From: a virus
Length of the DNA: 22,871 bases
Virus record (IMG/VR): IMGVR_UViG_3300042914_003545
Span: 1-22,871 of that record
Reading direction: 5' to 3' (one strand)
The translations under genes and the position numbers were made by a program. The notes under the pieces are model-generated. The model ran no database searches. It was not told where the DNA came from and worked only from the letters and a program-made list of their open reading frames with translations. Shown one piece after another: positions 2,629 through 20,829 of this stretch (its first letter is position 1; every line of letters begins with the position of its first letter).

Positions 2629-2816
2629 CGCAACAGGAACCACCCCGCTGCTCCGCCATTGTAGCAGCAGCAAGGACTACGGATTGTTACGGCCGCACTC
2701 GCAGTCGCGCAACCGATGGGGTATGGTTTGGAGGTCGAAGCGATTCGACGCACCATTCCCAACCACCCGGCGAGGACCTTGAGCGGCCCCGGTTGGTGAT
2801 CCACACCCCAAGACCA

Positions 2817-3332
2817 ATGAACACCACCATCAAGGCGGCACTTCGGGCTGACTGGGCCCCTGCAATCGAGTCCACTGCTCGCGCCATTGGCGTTGCGATC
2901 GCCTGCGTGATCGTTGCCGCCGACTGGCTGCGCTTCACCCAGCAGCACCCGTGGGCGGGGTTGCGAGCGCTTGAGTTTCCCGGCGCCGCCAGCTCCCCGA
3001 ATTTGACCACTAGCTCCCCGAATTTGACCACTAGCTCCTCGAATTTGGCGGTTAGCTCCTCGAATTTGGCGGTTAGCTCCTCGAATTTGGACGCTGCTAT
3101 AGCAGCTACTGAGCGCTATGCGTTGGCATTTGGCGGGAACAGTTCTGAAGTTGTGGATTGGCTGTTGCGGCGCCAATCTGAAGCCGCGATGCAGAACGCG
3201 ATGGGCAAGCTAGCAATGCTCCCCGCTACGCCGGAGCCACTTCTGCTGCCCGCCGCATTGGATCCGATCGCCCCAGTCCCAGCACCCCGCAAACGCGGCC
3301 GTCGCGCCACTCGACAACCAAAGGTGGCGTAA
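2817..3332 (+). CDS. Small protein with a hydrophobic N-terminal helix and a 7-residue tandem repeat
   Basis: I do not recognise this 171-residue protein. ATG 2817 is chosen; an in-frame TTG lies at 2793. Residues 22-36 are a hydrophobic stretch (IGVAIACVIVAADWL) that could be a membrane segment or buried helix. At about 61-95 there are five in-frame copies of a heptad of the form SS(P/S)NL(T/A)(T/V), from a 21-bp DNA tandem repeat. A helical segment follows (DAAIAATERYALAFG and VVDWLLRRQSEAAMQ). The C-terminus is proline-rich then strongly basic (PRKRGRRATRQPKVA), which suggests nucleic-acid binding. The gene stands alone on the plus strand, convergent with the minus-strand island, and a terminator hairpin lies just past its stop. 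Confidence 0.65.
   Translation: MNTTIKAALRADWAPAIESTARAIGVAIACVIVAADWLRFTQQHPWAGLRALEFPGAASSPNLTTSSPNLTTSSSNLAVSSSNLAVSSSNLDAAIAATERYALAFGGNSSEVVDWLLRRQSEAAMQNAMGKLAMLPATPEPLLLPAALDPIAPVPAPRKRGRRATRQPKVA
2991..3089 (+). repeat. 21-bp tandem repeat, five units, in frame
   Basis: Units start AGCTCC(C/T)CGAATTTG followed by six variable bases. The first two units end ACCACT, the next two GCGGTT, and the last diverges into the following codons. Each unit encodes seven residues. The two subtypes are each internally identical, pointing to recent unit-by-unit duplication by slippage or unequal recombination. Confidence 0.9.
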
Positions 3333-3961: not shown

Positions 3962-3991
3962 GAATGAGGGGGCCCATTCAAGCCCCCATTC
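3962..3991. repeat. Inverted repeat at the right end (minus-strand sense) of the GG-repeat array
   Basis: GAAT plus GGGGGC (3962-3973, with a 2-nt bulge) pairs with GCCCCCATTC (3982-3991) across an 8-nt loop. It lies between the repeat array and the start of the 3943-3386 gene. There is no U-tract on either strand, so it may be an RNA structural element or a translation-control hairpin rather than a terminator. Confidence 0.5.
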
Positions 3992-4645
3992 TGCTGCCAT
4001 TTGGCATCTGCAACAACGCCGGCAATACCTTGCGGTGCCTTGCGCCGTCAAGCCAGGCCACGCCTGCCGCGCAATGCCGTGCAACACCGTGGGCCGTCAA
4101 GCCAGGCCACGCCTGCGATGCCGTACCTCTCCAGTCCACTCCGTGCCTTGCCGGTCCTGCGGAGCCAATCCCGGCCTACCGAGCCATGCCTGCCTCGCGT
4201 TACCAAGCCCATCGGTGCCCACCGGTCCACGCCACGACTGCATCGCGCTGCCAAGCGCTGCCTTGCCTAACCATGCCTGCCGTGCCATGCCGTTCCTCGA
4301 ACGCACCTGGCCTCGCCACGCCGTGCCTGCAATACCACGCGGAGCCATACCGGTCCACGCCACGCCTGCCAATCCGATCCTGGCCCATCCATCGCTGCCT
4401 CACCTGCCGCGCCTGACCTGGCAACGCCCTGCCTCGCCTGCCGTGACTGTTCGTGGCTCTCCGGGCCTTGCCTTGCCTGCGTCGCCGTACCTTGCACTAT
4501 CCCGACCACGCCTAGCCAGCCGTGACTGAACAGGCCGTACCTTGCGAAGCCATGCCTGCCATTCCGGGCCAACCTGACCGTGCCACTCCTGCCAATCCTT
4601 GCCACGCCCTTTCGTGCGGAGCCTTGCCTAACCGGCCATGCCAGA
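3992..4645 (-). repeat. Degenerate pentanucleotide (GGCAN-like) repeat array, non-coding
   Basis: Read on the minus strand, the stretch is an almost unbroken series of 5-nt units beginning GG (GGCAT, GGCAA, GGCAC, GGTAC and others), interrupted by 4-nt GGCA units. On the plus strand this appears as CCAYGCCTGCC recurring near 4060, 4110, 4185, 4273, 4358 and 4545. A 24-bp exact direct repeat lies at 4044-4067 and 4093-4116. Smaller repeats such as GCGGAGCC, GCCGTACCTTGC and GCCGTGACTG also recur. Open frames of up to 192 codons run through it on both strands, but they are compositional artefacts. The array lies between two minus-strand genes, downstream of the first, so it should be transcribed as a long internal untranslated region. 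The unit is far too short and variable for CRISPR. Confidence 0.85.
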
Positions 4646-4674
4646 CCCTGGCTGCCGTAAAGCAATCGCCAGGG
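4646..4674. repeat. Inverted repeat at the left end (minus-strand sense) of the GG-repeat array
   Basis: CCCTGGC (4646-4652) and GCCAGGG (4668-4674) form a 7-bp stem with a 15-nt loop, 13 bp past the stop of the 5335-4688 gene. No U-tract follows in the minus direction, so read-through into the array is likely. Confidence 0.5.
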
Positions 4675-5447: not shown

Positions 5448-6593
5448 ATGACCACGGCAAAGGCCAGCACCAAGACCAAAGCCGCCGCAACCGCCGAACT
5501 TCCCCTAGTCGCCACAACTGAGGCCGTCCCTGAGGAAAACGACGCCACCACCACCGCCCCAGACGGCGCCATTGTCCCAGCAGGTGAAACCACTGCAATC
5601 TCCCGATGGGAGGCGCTGGCCCTCAGGATCGCGGAAGCCGAAGAGAAGGCGGCTAGCAAGCGGTTTGACTACCGAGACGAATGGGACAACAAAGCGGCCC
5701 GTTCCTGGGTGCACGAATTGCGGGGCATCAAGGGTTCAATAGAGCGCTGCAGGAAGGAGGCCAAGGCCGTTCACCTGGAGCGCGGCAGGGCTGTAGACGA
5801 CAGCGCCAAGCTGCTGGAGTCCGCCGTTCAAGGACTGATCGAGCCCCACGAAACGGCGATCAAGGCCATCGAGGCCGAAGAACAGGCCCGCATCGACGCC
5901 CACCGCGCCGTGCTTGACCGCATCGCCGCCCTGGCTGATGCCGCTGGGGCAGAAGGGGGAGACGGCATCGTTGACGTTGACGCCAGGCTGGCAGAACTGG
6001 CAGCGATCGATACCAGCACCCTCGAAGAGTTTGCGCAGGCCGGTCTGAACCGCCAGGCCGAAGCTATTGAGCAGCTGGGACTGCTGCGGGACAAACTGGA
6101 AGCCCAGGAGGCCCAGCGTATTGAGCTGGAGGCCCTGCGTGCGCAGGCCGCCGCCCGTGAGGACGCCGACCGCATTGCGAGACTGCAACAGGAGGCGGTA
6201 GAGGCCGACCGGCTGGCCCGTGAGGCGGAAGCGGCAGCCCGTGTTGCCGAAGCCGAAGAGCGGGCACGCAAGGAACGGGAGGATGCCGCTACCAGGGAAG
6301 CTCAGGCGCTGGCCCAGGTGGAAGCAGCACGCATTGCGCAGGAGGAGGCGGAGCGCCGGGCCGAGGAGGCGGCTGCACGGGAGGAGGCCCGCGTTAAGCA
6401 GCAAGCCGAGATGGAGGCGGCATTGCGGGAGGCGGCTGCCAGGGCTGCGGCGGCACAGCAGCAGTGCCGGGATGCGTTCGTGGCTGCCCTTACCGCGACC
6501 TTCACCACCATGGGCCCCGCCGACGCCGCCCGCGCCATCGCTGACGGGACGCTTCATCCGGCGGTGAAGGTGGACTGGTCTTTGGTCGCCTGA
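5448..6593 (+). CDS. Long coiled-coil phage protein of the recombination/replication region
   Basis: The 381-residue product has a Thr/Ala/Lys-rich N-terminal 50 residues, a helical domain at about 50-150 (HELRGIKGSIERCRKEAK), and then a long Ala/Glu/Arg coiled coil at about 195-345. The last 35 residues are a small domain, FTTMGPADAARAIADGTLHPAVKVDW. This arrangement, a coiled coil plus an A-R-A-I-A-x-G-x-(I/L)-HP-x-V end, is common in phage proteins encoded beside single-strand annealing proteins. Its biochemical role is not known to me. It may be a structural or partner-binding accessory of recombination. ATG 5448 has no clear Shine-Dalgarno. The coiled coil generates several long spurious frames on the other strands. 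Confidence 0.82.
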   Translation: MTTAKASTKTKAAATAELPLVATTEAVPEENDATTTAPDGAIVPAGETTAISRWEALALRIAEAEEKAASKRFDYRDEWDNKAARSWVHELRGIKGSIERCRKEAKAVHLERGRAVDDSAKLLESAVQGLIEPHETAIKAIEAEEQARIDAHRAVLDRIAALADAAGAEGGDGIVDVDARLAELAAIDTSTLEEFAQAGLNRQAEAIEQLGLLRDKLEAQEAQRIELEALRAQAAAREDADRIARLQQEAVEADRLAREAEAAARVAEAEERARKEREDAATREAQALAQVEAARIAQEEAERRAEEAAAREEARVKQQAEMEAALREAAARAAAAQQQCRDAFVAALTATFTTMGPADAARAIADGTLHPAVKVDWSLVA

Positions 6594-6598
6594 TCGCC

Positions 6599-6979
6599 AT
6601 GCTCACCTGCCCTCACTGCGGCATCGCAATCCGCGATCAACCGCCCACCAGTCCCGACGACCAGCCACTGGACAGCGAATCCGCCCGCCAGTTGCAGCGC
6701 ATTGAGGCCGAACTGGCGCGGGTGAAGGCTGCGATACAGCCGCAGACTGCCCCGGTGCCAATCGAAGACCTGAAGCTATCGACGCGGGCTAACAACGCGC
6801 TGAAGCGCGTTGGAGTTCACACCCTGGCCACGCTGCTCAACTGCAGTAACTTCGACTTACTGGACATTCGCAACTTCGGCCCCAGCTCACTCGGCGAAGT
6901 GCAGTTGGCCTTGCATCTGCGAGGCTTGAAGTTGCGGAAGGATCGAATGCTGCCACGGACTGGACGGGCTCGCAGTTGA
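6599..6979 (+). CDS. Phage protein with an RNA polymerase alpha C-terminal domain (alphaCTD-like), copy 1
   Basis: Residues 53-113 are an RNAP alphaCTD: PIEDLKLSTRANNALKRVG, a helix, then LLDIRNFGPSSLGEVQLAL and GLKL. In bacteria this domain binds UP-element DNA, activators and sigma region 4. Aligned to E. coli alpha, the DNA-contact residues R265 (here R63), N268 (N66), G296 (G94), S299 (S97) and E302 (E100) are present. C269 and K298 are replaced by Ala and Ser. The N-terminus has a single CPHC knuckle (C4, C7), likely a decayed version of the zinc ribbon in the next gene. A helical linker (about 27-46) joins the two. No alpha N-terminal domain is present. It follows the coiled-coil gene by 5 bp and precedes its paralogue by 31 bp. 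Confidence 0.9.
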   Translation: MLTCPHCGIAIRDQPPTSPDDQPLDSESARQLQRIEAELARVKAAIQPQTAPVPIEDLKLSTRANNALKRVGVHTLATLLNCSNFDLLDIRNFGPSSLGEVQLALHLRGLKLRKDRMLPRTGRARS

Positions 6980-7010
6980 TTACTTAACCAGATAGCCACT
7001 ACCAATTGCC

Positions 7011-7502
7011 ATGTTCCCCTGCCCTAACCCCAACTGCAAATGCTTTGAGCGGCGGGTGCTGGAGACTCGCTATGAGTCCAGTCGCGCTGCTATCCGCCGC
7101 CGTTGCATCTGCAAAACTTGCGGATTTATCTTCACCACGGAGGAGAAAGTTCGGATTGCCAAGAAAGAGCAACGGCCAATTACGGGCGCATCAGATCAGC
7201 CGTTGGTGCCCATCACACTGGAAGCCCGACTTGATAGCATCGAAACCGAACTGGCAGTGGTCCGGATGGAAATAGCCCAGGCACCACCACCAGTCCCTGT
7301 GCCTATCCAAGAGCTTGAACTTGGCGCGTACGCTTACGGCTCGCTGAAGCGGCAAGGGATCACCACCGTTGATGCCCTGGTCAAATTCTCAGGCGCGGAC
7401 CTGTTGAGCCTGCGCAATTTTGGTCAACAATCACTGAATGACGTGCGGGTGGCCCTAGCCCTGCGGGGGCTGGCCCTGCGCCCGGAGCGGACTAGCCCAT
7501 GA
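7011..7502 (+). CDS. NrdR-like zinc ribbon fused to an alphaCTD-like domain, copy 2
   Basis: This 163-residue protein has two domains. Residues 1-50 resemble the NrdR zinc ribbon: C4-x4-C9 and C34-x2-C37, with the SSRAAIRRRCIC and GFIFTTEEKV segments. In NrdR this part binds operator DNA; the ATP-cone domain that normally follows is missing. A helical linker (about 69-90) leads into an alphaCTD at about 97-157, IQELELGAYAYGSLKRQG then LLSLRNFGQQSLNDV and LRGLAL. The helix-hairpin-helix core (NFG, SL) is intact, but the positions of E. coli R265 and N268 are Tyr 107 and Gly 110. DNA contact may therefore come from the ribbon and protein contact from the alphaCTD fold. ATG 7011 is chosen as it starts just before C4. 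Confidence 0.9.
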   Translation: MFPCPNPNCKCFERRVLETRYESSRAAIRRRCICKTCGFIFTTEEKVRIAKKEQRPITGASDQPLVPITLEARLDSIETELAVVRMEIAQAPPPVPVPIQELELGAYAYGSLKRQGITTVDALVKFSGADLLSLRNFGQQSLNDVRVALALRGLALRPERTSP

Positions 7503-16851: not shown

Positions 16852-17063
16852 ACGATCACGCAAACCGGATCGCAAAAGCTGCGCAAGCCCGTAAGTTCAT
16901 CGGGCAAGTGGTTAGGTGGTGGCCACTCCGTTGGGGCAGTGCATGGGCCGCAAATGGCACCTTGCGGGAAGTGGCAGGAAGAAACGTCTTGATTGATCAC
17001 GATTGGAAATGGCTGCCTGACATTTATATGGAGCCACTGCCGCAATCTGTGGAGGGGGAATGA
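16848..17063 (+). CDS. Small hypothetical protein
   Basis: ATG 16848 overlaps the previous TGA (ATGA). The 71-residue product is Trp-rich: QVVRWWPLRWGSAWAANG, then REVAGRNVLIDHDWKWLPDI. It reads like a small beta barrel, but no family is recognised. Its stop overlaps the tmk ATG, and the end of its frame contains the GGAGGGGG purine run that can act as Shine-Dalgarno for tmk. Confidence 0.65.
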   Translation: MNDHANRIAKAAQARKFIGQVVRWWPLRWGSAWAANGTLREVAGRNVLIDHDWKWLPDIYMEPLPQSVEGE

Positions 17064-17719
17064 TGACCAACCCAACCCCATCCCGTGGCCGGTTCATCGT
17101 TCTGGAGGGGATCGACGGCTGCGGCAAGACCACCCAGCTGGAGGCCCTGCGCCAATGGCTACCTGGCAGTGGCCTGCTGCCCCCTGGTGCTCGCGTGATC
17201 GTGAGTCGAGAGCCTGGGGGAACCGCCCTGGGCCAGGCCCTGCGGGAGCTGCTGCTGCACCCTCCCGACGGAACTGCCCCGGTGCCCCGTGCAGAGCTGC
17301 TGCTCTATGCAGCCGACCGTGCCCAGCATGTCGAAACCGTCCTCTGGCCCGCGCTGGAGCGGGGGGATTGGGTGCTGTGCGATCGGTTCACCGGATCGAC
17401 GGCCGCGTATCAAGGCTATGGCAGGGGTTTGCCCCTGGCTCTGATTGACACGCTGGAAAGCCTGGCCACAGGCGGTCTGCAGGCCGATCTCACTCTATGG
17501 CTGGATGTCTCCCTGGCCGAGTCGATTCGGCGCCGCGGCGGGCAAGCGGCCGACCGCATCGAGGGGGAAGGGTGGGAATTCCTGTCTCGCGTGAGCCGGG
17601 GGTTTGCCGTCATGGCCGGCCAGCAGGGATGGACCCGCATCGCGGCAGAACACGGTGAGGCTGCTGTGACGATGGCCTGTCGCCGCGCCATGGTCCGTAC
17701 GTTTTGGGGGCGTGCATGA
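17060..17719 (+). CDS. tmk: Thymidylate kinase
   Basis: Tmk phosphorylates dTMP to dTDP with ATP. Motifs visible are the P-loop GIDGCGKTT (17-25), the REPGGTALG segment (50-58), DRFTGSTAAYQGYG (108-121) for dTMP binding, and a LID region R157-R166 with RRRGGQAADR. The length (219) is the normal bacterial size, so it is complete. The sequence reads like a picocyanobacterial chromosomal Tmk, in particular FIVLEGIDGCGKTTQLEAL, and codon usage is slightly more GC-rich than its neighbours. Transfer from a host is the likely source. ATG 17060 or 17063 are both possible and a purine-rich GGAGGGGG precedes them. With dcd it forms a dTTP-supply pair. Confidence 0.93.
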   Translation: MMTNPTPSRGRFIVLEGIDGCGKTTQLEALRQWLPGSGLLPPGARVIVSREPGGTALGQALRELLLHPPDGTAPVPRAELLLYAADRAQHVETVLWPALERGDWVLCDRFTGSTAAYQGYGRGLPLALIDTLESLATGGLQADLTLWLDVSLAESIRRRGGQAADRIEGEGWEFLSRVSRGFAVMAGQQGWTRIAAEHGEAAVTMACRRAMVRTFWGRA

Positions 17720-19556: not shown

Positions 19557-19738
19557 CCACCCACCAACCACCCGAACCCATGGACACCCCTGAATCAATG
19601 GAAACCAAAGTGGCCATGCCCGAAGAACTTAAGGCGGAATTTGAAAAACTACGAAACCAAAACCAGACTTTTAGGATTTGCTTCTACCTTCAATCCCTTG
19701 CCATCCTGATATTGACATTTGGTCCCCTTCTGCAGTAA
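19553..19738 (+). CDS. Small putative membrane protein
   Basis: ATG 19553 (ATGA overlap with TerL) gives 61 residues: a Pro/Glu-rich start, a short charged helix (PEELKAEFEKLRNQNQTF) and a C-terminal hydrophobic segment (ICFYLQSLAILILTFGPLL) that would span a membrane once. Base composition in the second half is AT-richer than the neighbours. The TAA overlaps the next ATG (TAATG). Position next to packaging genes does not define a role. Confidence 0.6.
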   Translation: MTTHQPPEPMDTPESMETKVAMPEELKAEFEKLRNQNQTFRICFYLQSLAILILTFGPLLQ

Positions 19739-20829
19739 TGACCACCATCCTCAACCCGCAACCACGGCCCACCAATGACAACCCTGAAGCTCCCGAAGGC
19801 TCCCTTGTCCCAACTGATCGGCAAGCCGGTGGCGGGGACATGGCGTCTTCGCCAGTCGTCGCAGGGGAGCCACCTGGAGCTGTTCCGCTTCGGGGGGAGC
19901 TGGACGGCGCCATCGCCGGCGGTGAGGATCCACCTGACCCCCGCCCACGTCGTACTACTCGATCGCGGCGAGCTGTTCGTGAAGGAGAACCCCTAGAACA
20001 GCCAGTCAAGCCCGGCAGCCCGCCCCGTACCGAGCTATCCGAGCGGTTGATCACTGAAAACCAAGGCCTCGCCCGCAAAGCTGCCAACAAGTGGGCAAGG
20101 CTTTGTGGTCGCCCCTATGACGACTTCATCGGCCCCGCGTTGTTAGGGCTTGTCAATGGCTGCCGACGCTACGACCCCACCCGTATCAACACTGGCACCG
20201 GTCGCCCGTATGCCATCTCTACCTGCGTCTGCCAGTACATCGAAGGGGAGATCAAGCACTACATCAGAGATCACGGATATGACGTAAAAATGCCTAGCAA
20301 GTGGCGCGAGCACTACCCAAAGGTGCGCCGGTTGCTGGCCGAAGGCTTGACCCTGGCCCAGATCGTAGAGGCCATCCCCGCTTTTGCCGAGTCCGAGATC
20401 ACCGAAATGATGGGCGCCATGGTCGGCACCGTAGAGCTTGAGGACGAAATCACCCTGTTCAGCGATCACCAACCCCAGGCCGTGGACGAAAGCCTTGCCC
20501 CGGCGTTGTTCCGCCTGACTGAACAGGCATTTAACAACCTGCGACTCGCTGACCGTGGCTTGCTGGAGCGATGGGCTGCCGATCCGTTCAAGAGGAGCTA
20601 CCCATCAGGGCCGATCATCCAGTTTCACAACCGCTTGAAGGCCCAGCTGCGCGGCAAGACCCTGCAGCAGTTCCGCCAGGGGATGCTTGGTATTGACGTG
20701 GTGGCCACACCCCCAGCACCCAAGGCCCGCAGCCCACGCCAGCCCAGGCCCGCAGCTTCCCCAGTCGTCCAGCCGTCGCTGTTTGGCCGTAATCAGCGCA
20801 AGCCGCACCCTAGGGCGGTAAAGCTATAG
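19738..20829 (+). CDS. Phage sigma-70-type factor (regions 2-3 clear, region 4 not recognisable)
   Basis: The core at about 101-240 is sigma-70 region 2 and part of region 3. ITENQGLARKAANKWARLC and PYDDFIGPALLGLVNGCRRY match region 2.1-2.2, with an AISTCVCQYIEGEIKHYIRD helix for 2.3-2.4. VKMPSKWREHYPKVRRL is the region 3 start. The tail (240-363) shows no region 4 helix-turn-helix and ends Pro/Lys-rich. Such a factor could direct host RNAP to phage promoters but may lack -35 contacts. The first ATG (19738, TAATG) gives a Pro-rich N-terminal 95 residues. Those 95 codons run over a second, better-looking frame (19775-19996), so the true start could be farther downstream at a non-ATG codon. Confidence 0.85.
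   Translation: MTTILNPQPRPTNDNPEAPEGSLVPTDRQAGGGDMASSPVVAGEPPGAVPLRGELDGAIAGGEDPPDPRPRRTTRSRRAVREGEPLEQPVKPGSPPRTELSERLITENQGLARKAANKWARLCGRPYDDFIGPALLGLVNGCRRYDPTRINTGTGRPYAISTCVCQYIEGEIKHYIRDHGYDVKMPSKWREHYPKVRRLLAEGLTLAQIVEAIPAFAESEITEMMGAMVGTVELEDEITLFSDHQPQAVDESLAPALFRLTEQAFNNLRLADRGLLERWAADPFKRSYPSGPIIQFHNRLKAQLRGKTLQQFRQGMLGIDVVATPPAPKARSPRQPRPAASPVVQPSLFGRNQRKPHPRAVKL
19775..19996 (+). CDS. Possible small gene overlapping the sigma N-terminus
   Basis: ATG 19775 opens a 73-codon frame with a coherent strand-rich product: QLIGKPVAGTWRLRQSSQG, then LELFRFGGSWTAPS and HVVLLDRGELFVKENP. Third codon positions are mostly G or C, which is the signature of coding in this GC-rich genome. The sigma frame over the same bases is Pro/Arg-rich and has mixed third positions. 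I think this is a real gene, with the sigma 5' region either dual-coding or misassigned. No family recognised. Confidence 0.55.
   Translation: MTTLKLPKAPLSQLIGKPVAGTWRLRQSSQGSHLELFRFGGSWTAPSPAVRIHLTPAHVVLLDRGELFVKENP

Follow-up and report, generated by a model that had tools for sequence, protein, structure and literature searches.

A tandem pair of cyanophage genes encodes proteins ending in an RNA polymerase alphaCTD, one of them behind an NrdR-type zinc ribbon

The window analysed here is the whole 22,871-nt (22.9-kb) linear virus record IMGVR_UViG_3300042914_003545. It contains two adjacent genes, p1 and p2, whose products both end in the C-terminal domain of the RNA polymerase alpha subunit (alphaCTD; Table 1), a module for docking to DNA and activators that is normally confined to the alpha subunit of the host polymerase. 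The pair lies outside the structural region, inside an SSB-Rad52-helicase stretch, with recombination genes (Rad52, SSB, RusA) on one side and a helicase/methyltransferase on the other. The stop codon of the coiled-coil-rich upstream gene is located 5 nt before the p1 start, indicating that the three genes are probably transcribed together. Both genes are under purifying selection, with dN/dS values of 0.23–0.41 for p1 and 0.16–0.22 for p2, which excludes chance or non-coding reading frames. In PHROGs, p1 has no family and p2 no significant one.

Table 1. Coordinates of p1, p2, their domains and associated genes in the window (alphaCTD, C-terminal domain of RNA polymerase alpha).
Feature	Position	Strand	Description	Basis
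Coiled-coil-rich upstream gene	5448..6593	+	PHROG 16469	
p1	6599..6979	+	126 aa; CPHCG knuckle, heptad helix, alphaCTD	ORF; PF03118, 57 bits
p1 linker helix	6674..6733	+	residues 26-45	AlphaFold helix H26-45; heptad test
p1 alphaCTD	6743..6937	+	residues ~49-113	profile, PDB sequence matches, tree, fold
p2	7011..7502	+	163 aa; NrdR-type zinc ribbon, heptad helix, alphaCTD	ORF; PF03118, 53.5 bits; PF22811, 27.2 bits
p2 NrdR-type zinc ribbon	7011..7154	+	residues 1-48; C4-x4-C9 / C34-x2-C37, IRRR, E-T-R	PF22811; identity to host NrdR
p2 linker helix	7218..7280	+	residues 70-90	AlphaFold helix H70-90; heptad test
p2 alphaCTD	7299..7490	+	residues 97-160	profile, PDB sequence matches, tree, fold
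SigF/SigB-type (group 3) sigma factor	19678..20829	+	between terL and portal; likely functional partner of p1/p2	

Two further features of the window were observed upstream of this locus. A strong 5-nt and 10-nt periodicity runs through positions 3990-4660 (about 650 bp), where no convincing gene was recognised; the units are of the type CATGC CTGCC GTGCC ATGCC, and autocorrelation at lag 5 is 0.43 vs 0.26 for the window. A similar peak occurs in 10 of the 11 related loci scanned, the exception being L007, and in most cases it lies next to the same pair of minus-strand genes; the segment is a candidate replication origin or structural element. At 2991-3090, a 21-bp repeat (4.8 copies) within the ORF 2793-3332 encodes a repeated 7-residue unit.

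An earlier note on this DNA had proposed that both products end in a genuine alphaCTD, and Pfam profile, PDB sequence matches and AlphaFold fold agree on this. RNA_pol_A_CTD (PF03118) is the best Pfam family for residues 49-106 of p1 (57 bits, E 1.6e-15) and for residues 97-150 of p2 (53.5 bits, E 2e-14), in both cases more than twice the curated cut-off of 23.8 bits. In a sequence search against solved structures, p1 matched nothing but RpoA chains; for p2, every strong match was an RpoA chain, accompanied by four marginal NrdR matches. The AlphaFold models of p1 and p2 superpose on solved alphaCTDs (1lb2, 1z3e, 7vpd, 9dvt) with target-normalised TM values of 0.8–0.9, in models whose pLDDT is mostly above 90 in the alphaCTD and whose whole-chain pTM is just 0.42–0.53. 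No other helix-hairpin-helix family outscored RNA_pol_A_CTD in the profile search; among orthologues and other phage alphaCTD proteins, HHH_5 reached 15–18 bits (cut-off 27) vs 42–78 bits for the alphaCTD. The proposed lack of an alpha N-terminal domain (alphaNTD) was likewise upheld: the profile search gave no alphaNTD match in p1 or p2, and full rpoA models align at their C-terminal end only, with 59 bits vs a cut-off of 434. The two proteins are paralogues, as had been suspected, sharing 43–46% identity over 114–131 aa, linker helix included, and clustering with a support of 0.93 in an alphaCTD tree whose power is limited by the shortness of the domain.

The large terminase subunit TerL of the phage is closest to those of cyanophages S-CRES3, P-SS2 and S-CBS2 (~35% identity), and its thymidylate kinase (17060-17719) shares up to 79% identity with Synechococcus/Cyanobium relatives. 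Judging from these sequence affinities, the host is probably a freshwater picocyanobacterium. The kinase itself is apparently host-derived and is widespread in this phage group. Among 121 Cyanobiaceae genomes, the alphaCTD model matched in 111, with a single rpoA-sized match in 110 and two in one; as the matches are, with one exception, single and rpoA-sized, proteins of the p1/p2 type are not a host family. A separate observation in a bacterial assembly, that of Cyanobium sp. CZS25K (L188), is a 1730-aa ORF (G059:C26) encoding a long coiled-coil protein with two alphaCTD matches. Identity to the host alphaCTD amounts to 28/60 residues for p1 and 25/60 for p2. Capture of the present host's rpoA is rejected for p1/p2, since identity is only ~45% although the host domain hardly varies within its family.

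The earlier description of both products as free-standing alphaCTDs holds for p1 but not for p2, the N-terminus of which is an NrdR-type zinc ribbon. PF22811 matches p2 with 27.2 bits, exactly at the cut-off, and its orthologues in L201, L203 and L204 with 37–40 bits. The ribbon shares with the NrdR repressor two cysteine pairs, of which the first is spaced C-x4-C, the RRR motif and the specificity motif, which reads E-T-R where host NrdR has E-S-R. Equivalents of IRRR, R12 and R17 are kept, and the ribbon agrees with that of host NrdR at 21 of 46 positions (46–50% identity). In the NrdR ribbon-DNA complex, six arginines including RRRR contact backbone phosphates, and D15 and R17 contact bases (PMC9110341). 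Whereas NrdR continues into an ATP-cone, for which neither p1 nor p2 gave a profile match, p2 continues into a heptad helix and the alphaCTD. In p1, only one CPxC knuckle (CPHCG) is retained and no NrdR ribbon was recognised. The ancestral gene most likely encoded an NrdR-type zinc ribbon at the N-terminus. The linker helices of p1 and p2 both show a hydrophobic 3-4 spacing. That of p1 follows the pattern L-x2-I-x3-L-x2-V; in the heptad test its periodicity falls at 2–3% of shuffles and that of p2 at 0.3%, and in orthologues L201 and L203 the signal is no better than in shuffles. We regard the modelled helices of p1 and p2 as a candidate dimerising coiled coil.

The two alphaCTDs also differ in the residues that read DNA (E. 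coli RpoA numbering). With the host alphaCTD, p1 shares the fold, the profile and the equivalents of R265, N268, S299 and E302. The host domain has R265, N268 and K298; K298, a position that touches DNA in E. coli, is lost in p1 and replaced by Q in p2, where R265 has become Y and N268 has become G. Across the family, R265 is constant in every p1 and in every single-copy orthologue and is lost in p2 only, and position 268 is G in four of the p1 proteins from eight other contigs. K298 is changed in all members, and DNA affinity may therefore be low. R265 and N268 are critical for alphaCTD-DNA binding (PMC11434276). Having lost both, p2 should not bind UP-element DNA in the classical way, and the takeover of UP elements suggested in the earlier note is not supported for it in that form. 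The DNA-reading parts are thus distributed differently between the copies: p1 has kept R265/N268, which serve minor-groove DNA binding, and lost most of the ribbon, whereas p2 retains the ribbon, including its DNA-contacting arginines, but neither R265 nor N268.

About 17 related cyanophage contigs carry an alphaCTD gene at a single syntenic position, and others have lost it; all relatives are metagenome fragments, so that absence of the gene from any one of them is weak evidence. p1 occurs in 8 related contigs with 87–99% identity. p2 was seen beside p1 only, and p1 stands alone in L007, where p2 is cleanly absent, and in L011, where another ORF takes its place. A second, more divergent subgroup (L199-L204, L222, L225) has just one gene, built in the same way, that either combines ribbon and R265 or has undergone an internal deletion of the ribbon (L199, L200). 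In a short-alignment tree this subgroup (L199 type) lies nearer the cyanobacterial alphaCTD. Neighbouring genes are 35–77% identical and in the same order in both subgroups, which identifies the locus as one and the same. L220 and L226 retain an intact neighbourhood but lack the alphaCTD gene; L226 has a short ORF starting MPTCPHCG that looks like a remnant of it. As some related phages do without the gene, it is not universally essential. A different protein of ~200 aa is encoded where it is missing (L220:7103-7712 and L226:10378-10996, reverse-complement coordinates), which by eye resembles a KilA-N type DNA-binding protein, as a candidate assignment.

The window also encodes a sigma factor. 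Its region 2 is matched by PRK07408 (NCBIfam; 68 bits over 24-120 of 258) and SigBFG (47 bits), both scores lying below the whole-protein cut-offs, and the protein matches PDB 8x6g_H with an E-value of 1.4e-4. No profile match extended beyond region 2-3, and region 4 could be divergent or lost. In cyanophage P-SS2, a group 3 sigma gene occupies the corresponding position, directly after terL (PMC2784084). All eight alphaCTD-bearing contigs that extend as far as the sigma locus (G000, G001, G008, G011, G012, G036, G183, G184) carry the sigma gene; G006 and G192 have an alphaCTD gene and no sigma gene, and are ~26-kb fragments ending at or before the expected position. Relatives without an alphaCTD gene (G181, G182, G185 and others) carry the sigma gene as well, and on the evidence of G181 and G185 the pairing is not obligatory. 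The occurrence of alphaCTD genes inside a sigma-bearing clade is thus suggestive of a link, though not an exclusive one. The phage sigma factor makes a role of p1 and p2 in redirecting transcription, as envisaged in the earlier note, more plausible.

Our preferred reading, which we hold tentatively, is that p1 and p2 serve the phage as transcription adaptors, which would provide an alphaCTD in trans and redirect the host polymerase, probably together with the phage sigma. The linker helices would dimerise p1 and p2, standing in for the absent alphaNTD, so that two alphaCTDs come together as they do in the polymerase. The p2 ribbon and the p1 alphaCTD would hold this complex upstream of selected promoters, and the alphaCTD surface could then contact sigma region 4, the host polymerase or an alphaCTD-dependent activator. 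In this way the host polymerase, probably in complex with the SigF-like sigma of the phage, would be steered to the selected promoters. Dimerisation, DNA targets, partner contacts and the direction of the effect are all what we infer for this model. Phage control through the alphaCTD has precedents: mutations in P2 Ogr suppress rpoA L290H (PMC11434276), and T4 ADP-ribosylates R265 (PMC2988020). The phage shows no enrichment of NrdR boxes, and no target site for the adaptor was identified. A bolder proposal, which we consider unlikely, is that the chimera of ribbon, coiled coil and alphaCTD is a detachable alphaCTD which, paired with a phage sigma in which no region 4 is recognisable, provides the upstream promoter recognition of a phage-specific holoenzyme; the tandem copies would then split the job, one reading DNA by its alphaCTD and the other by its ribbon.

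The same domains could also work against host transcription. A free alphaCTD might act as a decoy, competing with that of the polymerase for host activators such as RpaA or for UP-element DNA and so shutting host transcription down, with p2 operating purely via protein contacts. This would fit the contact between RpaA and the Synechococcus alphaCTD at PkaiBC (PDB 9dvt/9dvu, among the fold matches of p1 and p2), the purifying selection that keeps the p2 fold even without R265/N268, and the placement of the genes away from the structural region. A decoy, however, needs neither an NrdR ribbon with DNA-contact arginines nor the conserved R265 of p1, and an identity of just ~45% to the host alphaCTD means that host surfaces are not closely mimicked, making this reading a rather unlikely one. 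We find it improbable that p1 and p2 are generic helix-hairpin-helix DNA binders for replication or recombination, in which an alphaCTD-like fold is divorced from transcription. Their position between Rad52, SSB, RusA and the helicase/methyltransferase would suit such a role, and alphaCTD-like stretches occur in non-polymerase proteins too, for example as weak matches in PglW; yet RNA_pol_A_CTD scores far above the generic HHH_5, the second domain is a transcription-factor ribbon, and the phage has a sigma factor. A part in a defence system was rejected, as the similarity to PglW is weak and confined to the alphaCTD-like stretch.

The ribbon raises another possibility, namely that p2 binds the NrdR boxes ahead of the host genes for ribonucleotide reductase, where its alphaCTD would turn repression into activation, providing more dNTP for phage replication. 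The closeness of the ribbon to that of host NrdR, the retained E-S/T-R specificity motif, the presence of NrdR in the host, and the tmk and dCTP deaminase genes of the phage are in keeping with this. On the other hand, NrdR boxes show no excess in the phage itself, the host reductase promoter was not located using PF02867, which misses the cyanobacterial enzyme, and neither p1, the invariant member, nor the loss of the ribbon in L199 and L200 is explained. We judge this decidedly improbable.

Like the putative adaptor p2, the P2 Ogr and P4 Delta activators are small zinc-binding phage proteins, and Ogr acts through the alphaCTD. Whereas Ogr contacts the alphaCTD of the host, p1 and p2 have one built into the phage protein. 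The Ogr/Delta profile PF04606 matched neither p1 nor p2; it reached 22.6 bits in L203 (cut-off 26.3) and an E-value of 1e-4 in orthologue ribbons. The gp33/gp55/gp45 system of T4 late transcription also combines a phage sigma-like factor with small co-factors that steer the host core polymerase, but has no sequence relation to p1/p2, and to our knowledge no part of it contains an alphaCTD.

Phage proteins containing an alphaCTD have been annotated before. Several are named as such in UniProt (via BFVD), and another is found in Bacillus phage Goe8; ORF40 of Erythrobacter phage vB_EliS-L02 is annotated accordingly (PMC9127768), and proteins of Zenteno07 and Mazun match the alphaCTD profile though not so named in their records. 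Many tblastn matches labelled 'phage' or 'plasmid' proved to be chromosomal rpoA operons on mis-labelled records (e.g. a C. difficile record), and one in a Streptomyces record was a full alpha subunit; all of these were left out of the counts. The other phage proteins share with p1 and p2 an alphaCTD without alphaNTD and differ in their N-terminal parts where these were determined. None of those examined (Goe8, Zenteno07, Mazun, L211, L023-L025) has an NrdR ribbon, and no tandem pair was seen, several published proteins being compared by name alone. We found no paper on a tested function for any of them, in a search mostly without subscription journals. Given the absence of the ribbon from the other proteins examined, the NrdR-ribbon-alphaCTD fusion and the split tandem pair appear, at the sequence level, to be new, whereas phage alphaCTD proteins as such are already known.

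Redirection of the host enzyme by phages that lack their own polymerase is understood in a few model phages; for cyanophages, knowledge of it is poor. The family of p1 and p2 offers a clean test system for this question: it includes a natural gene pair of which one member retains R265 and the other does not, a second DNA-binding domain can be recognised, and the genome also encodes a phage sigma factor.
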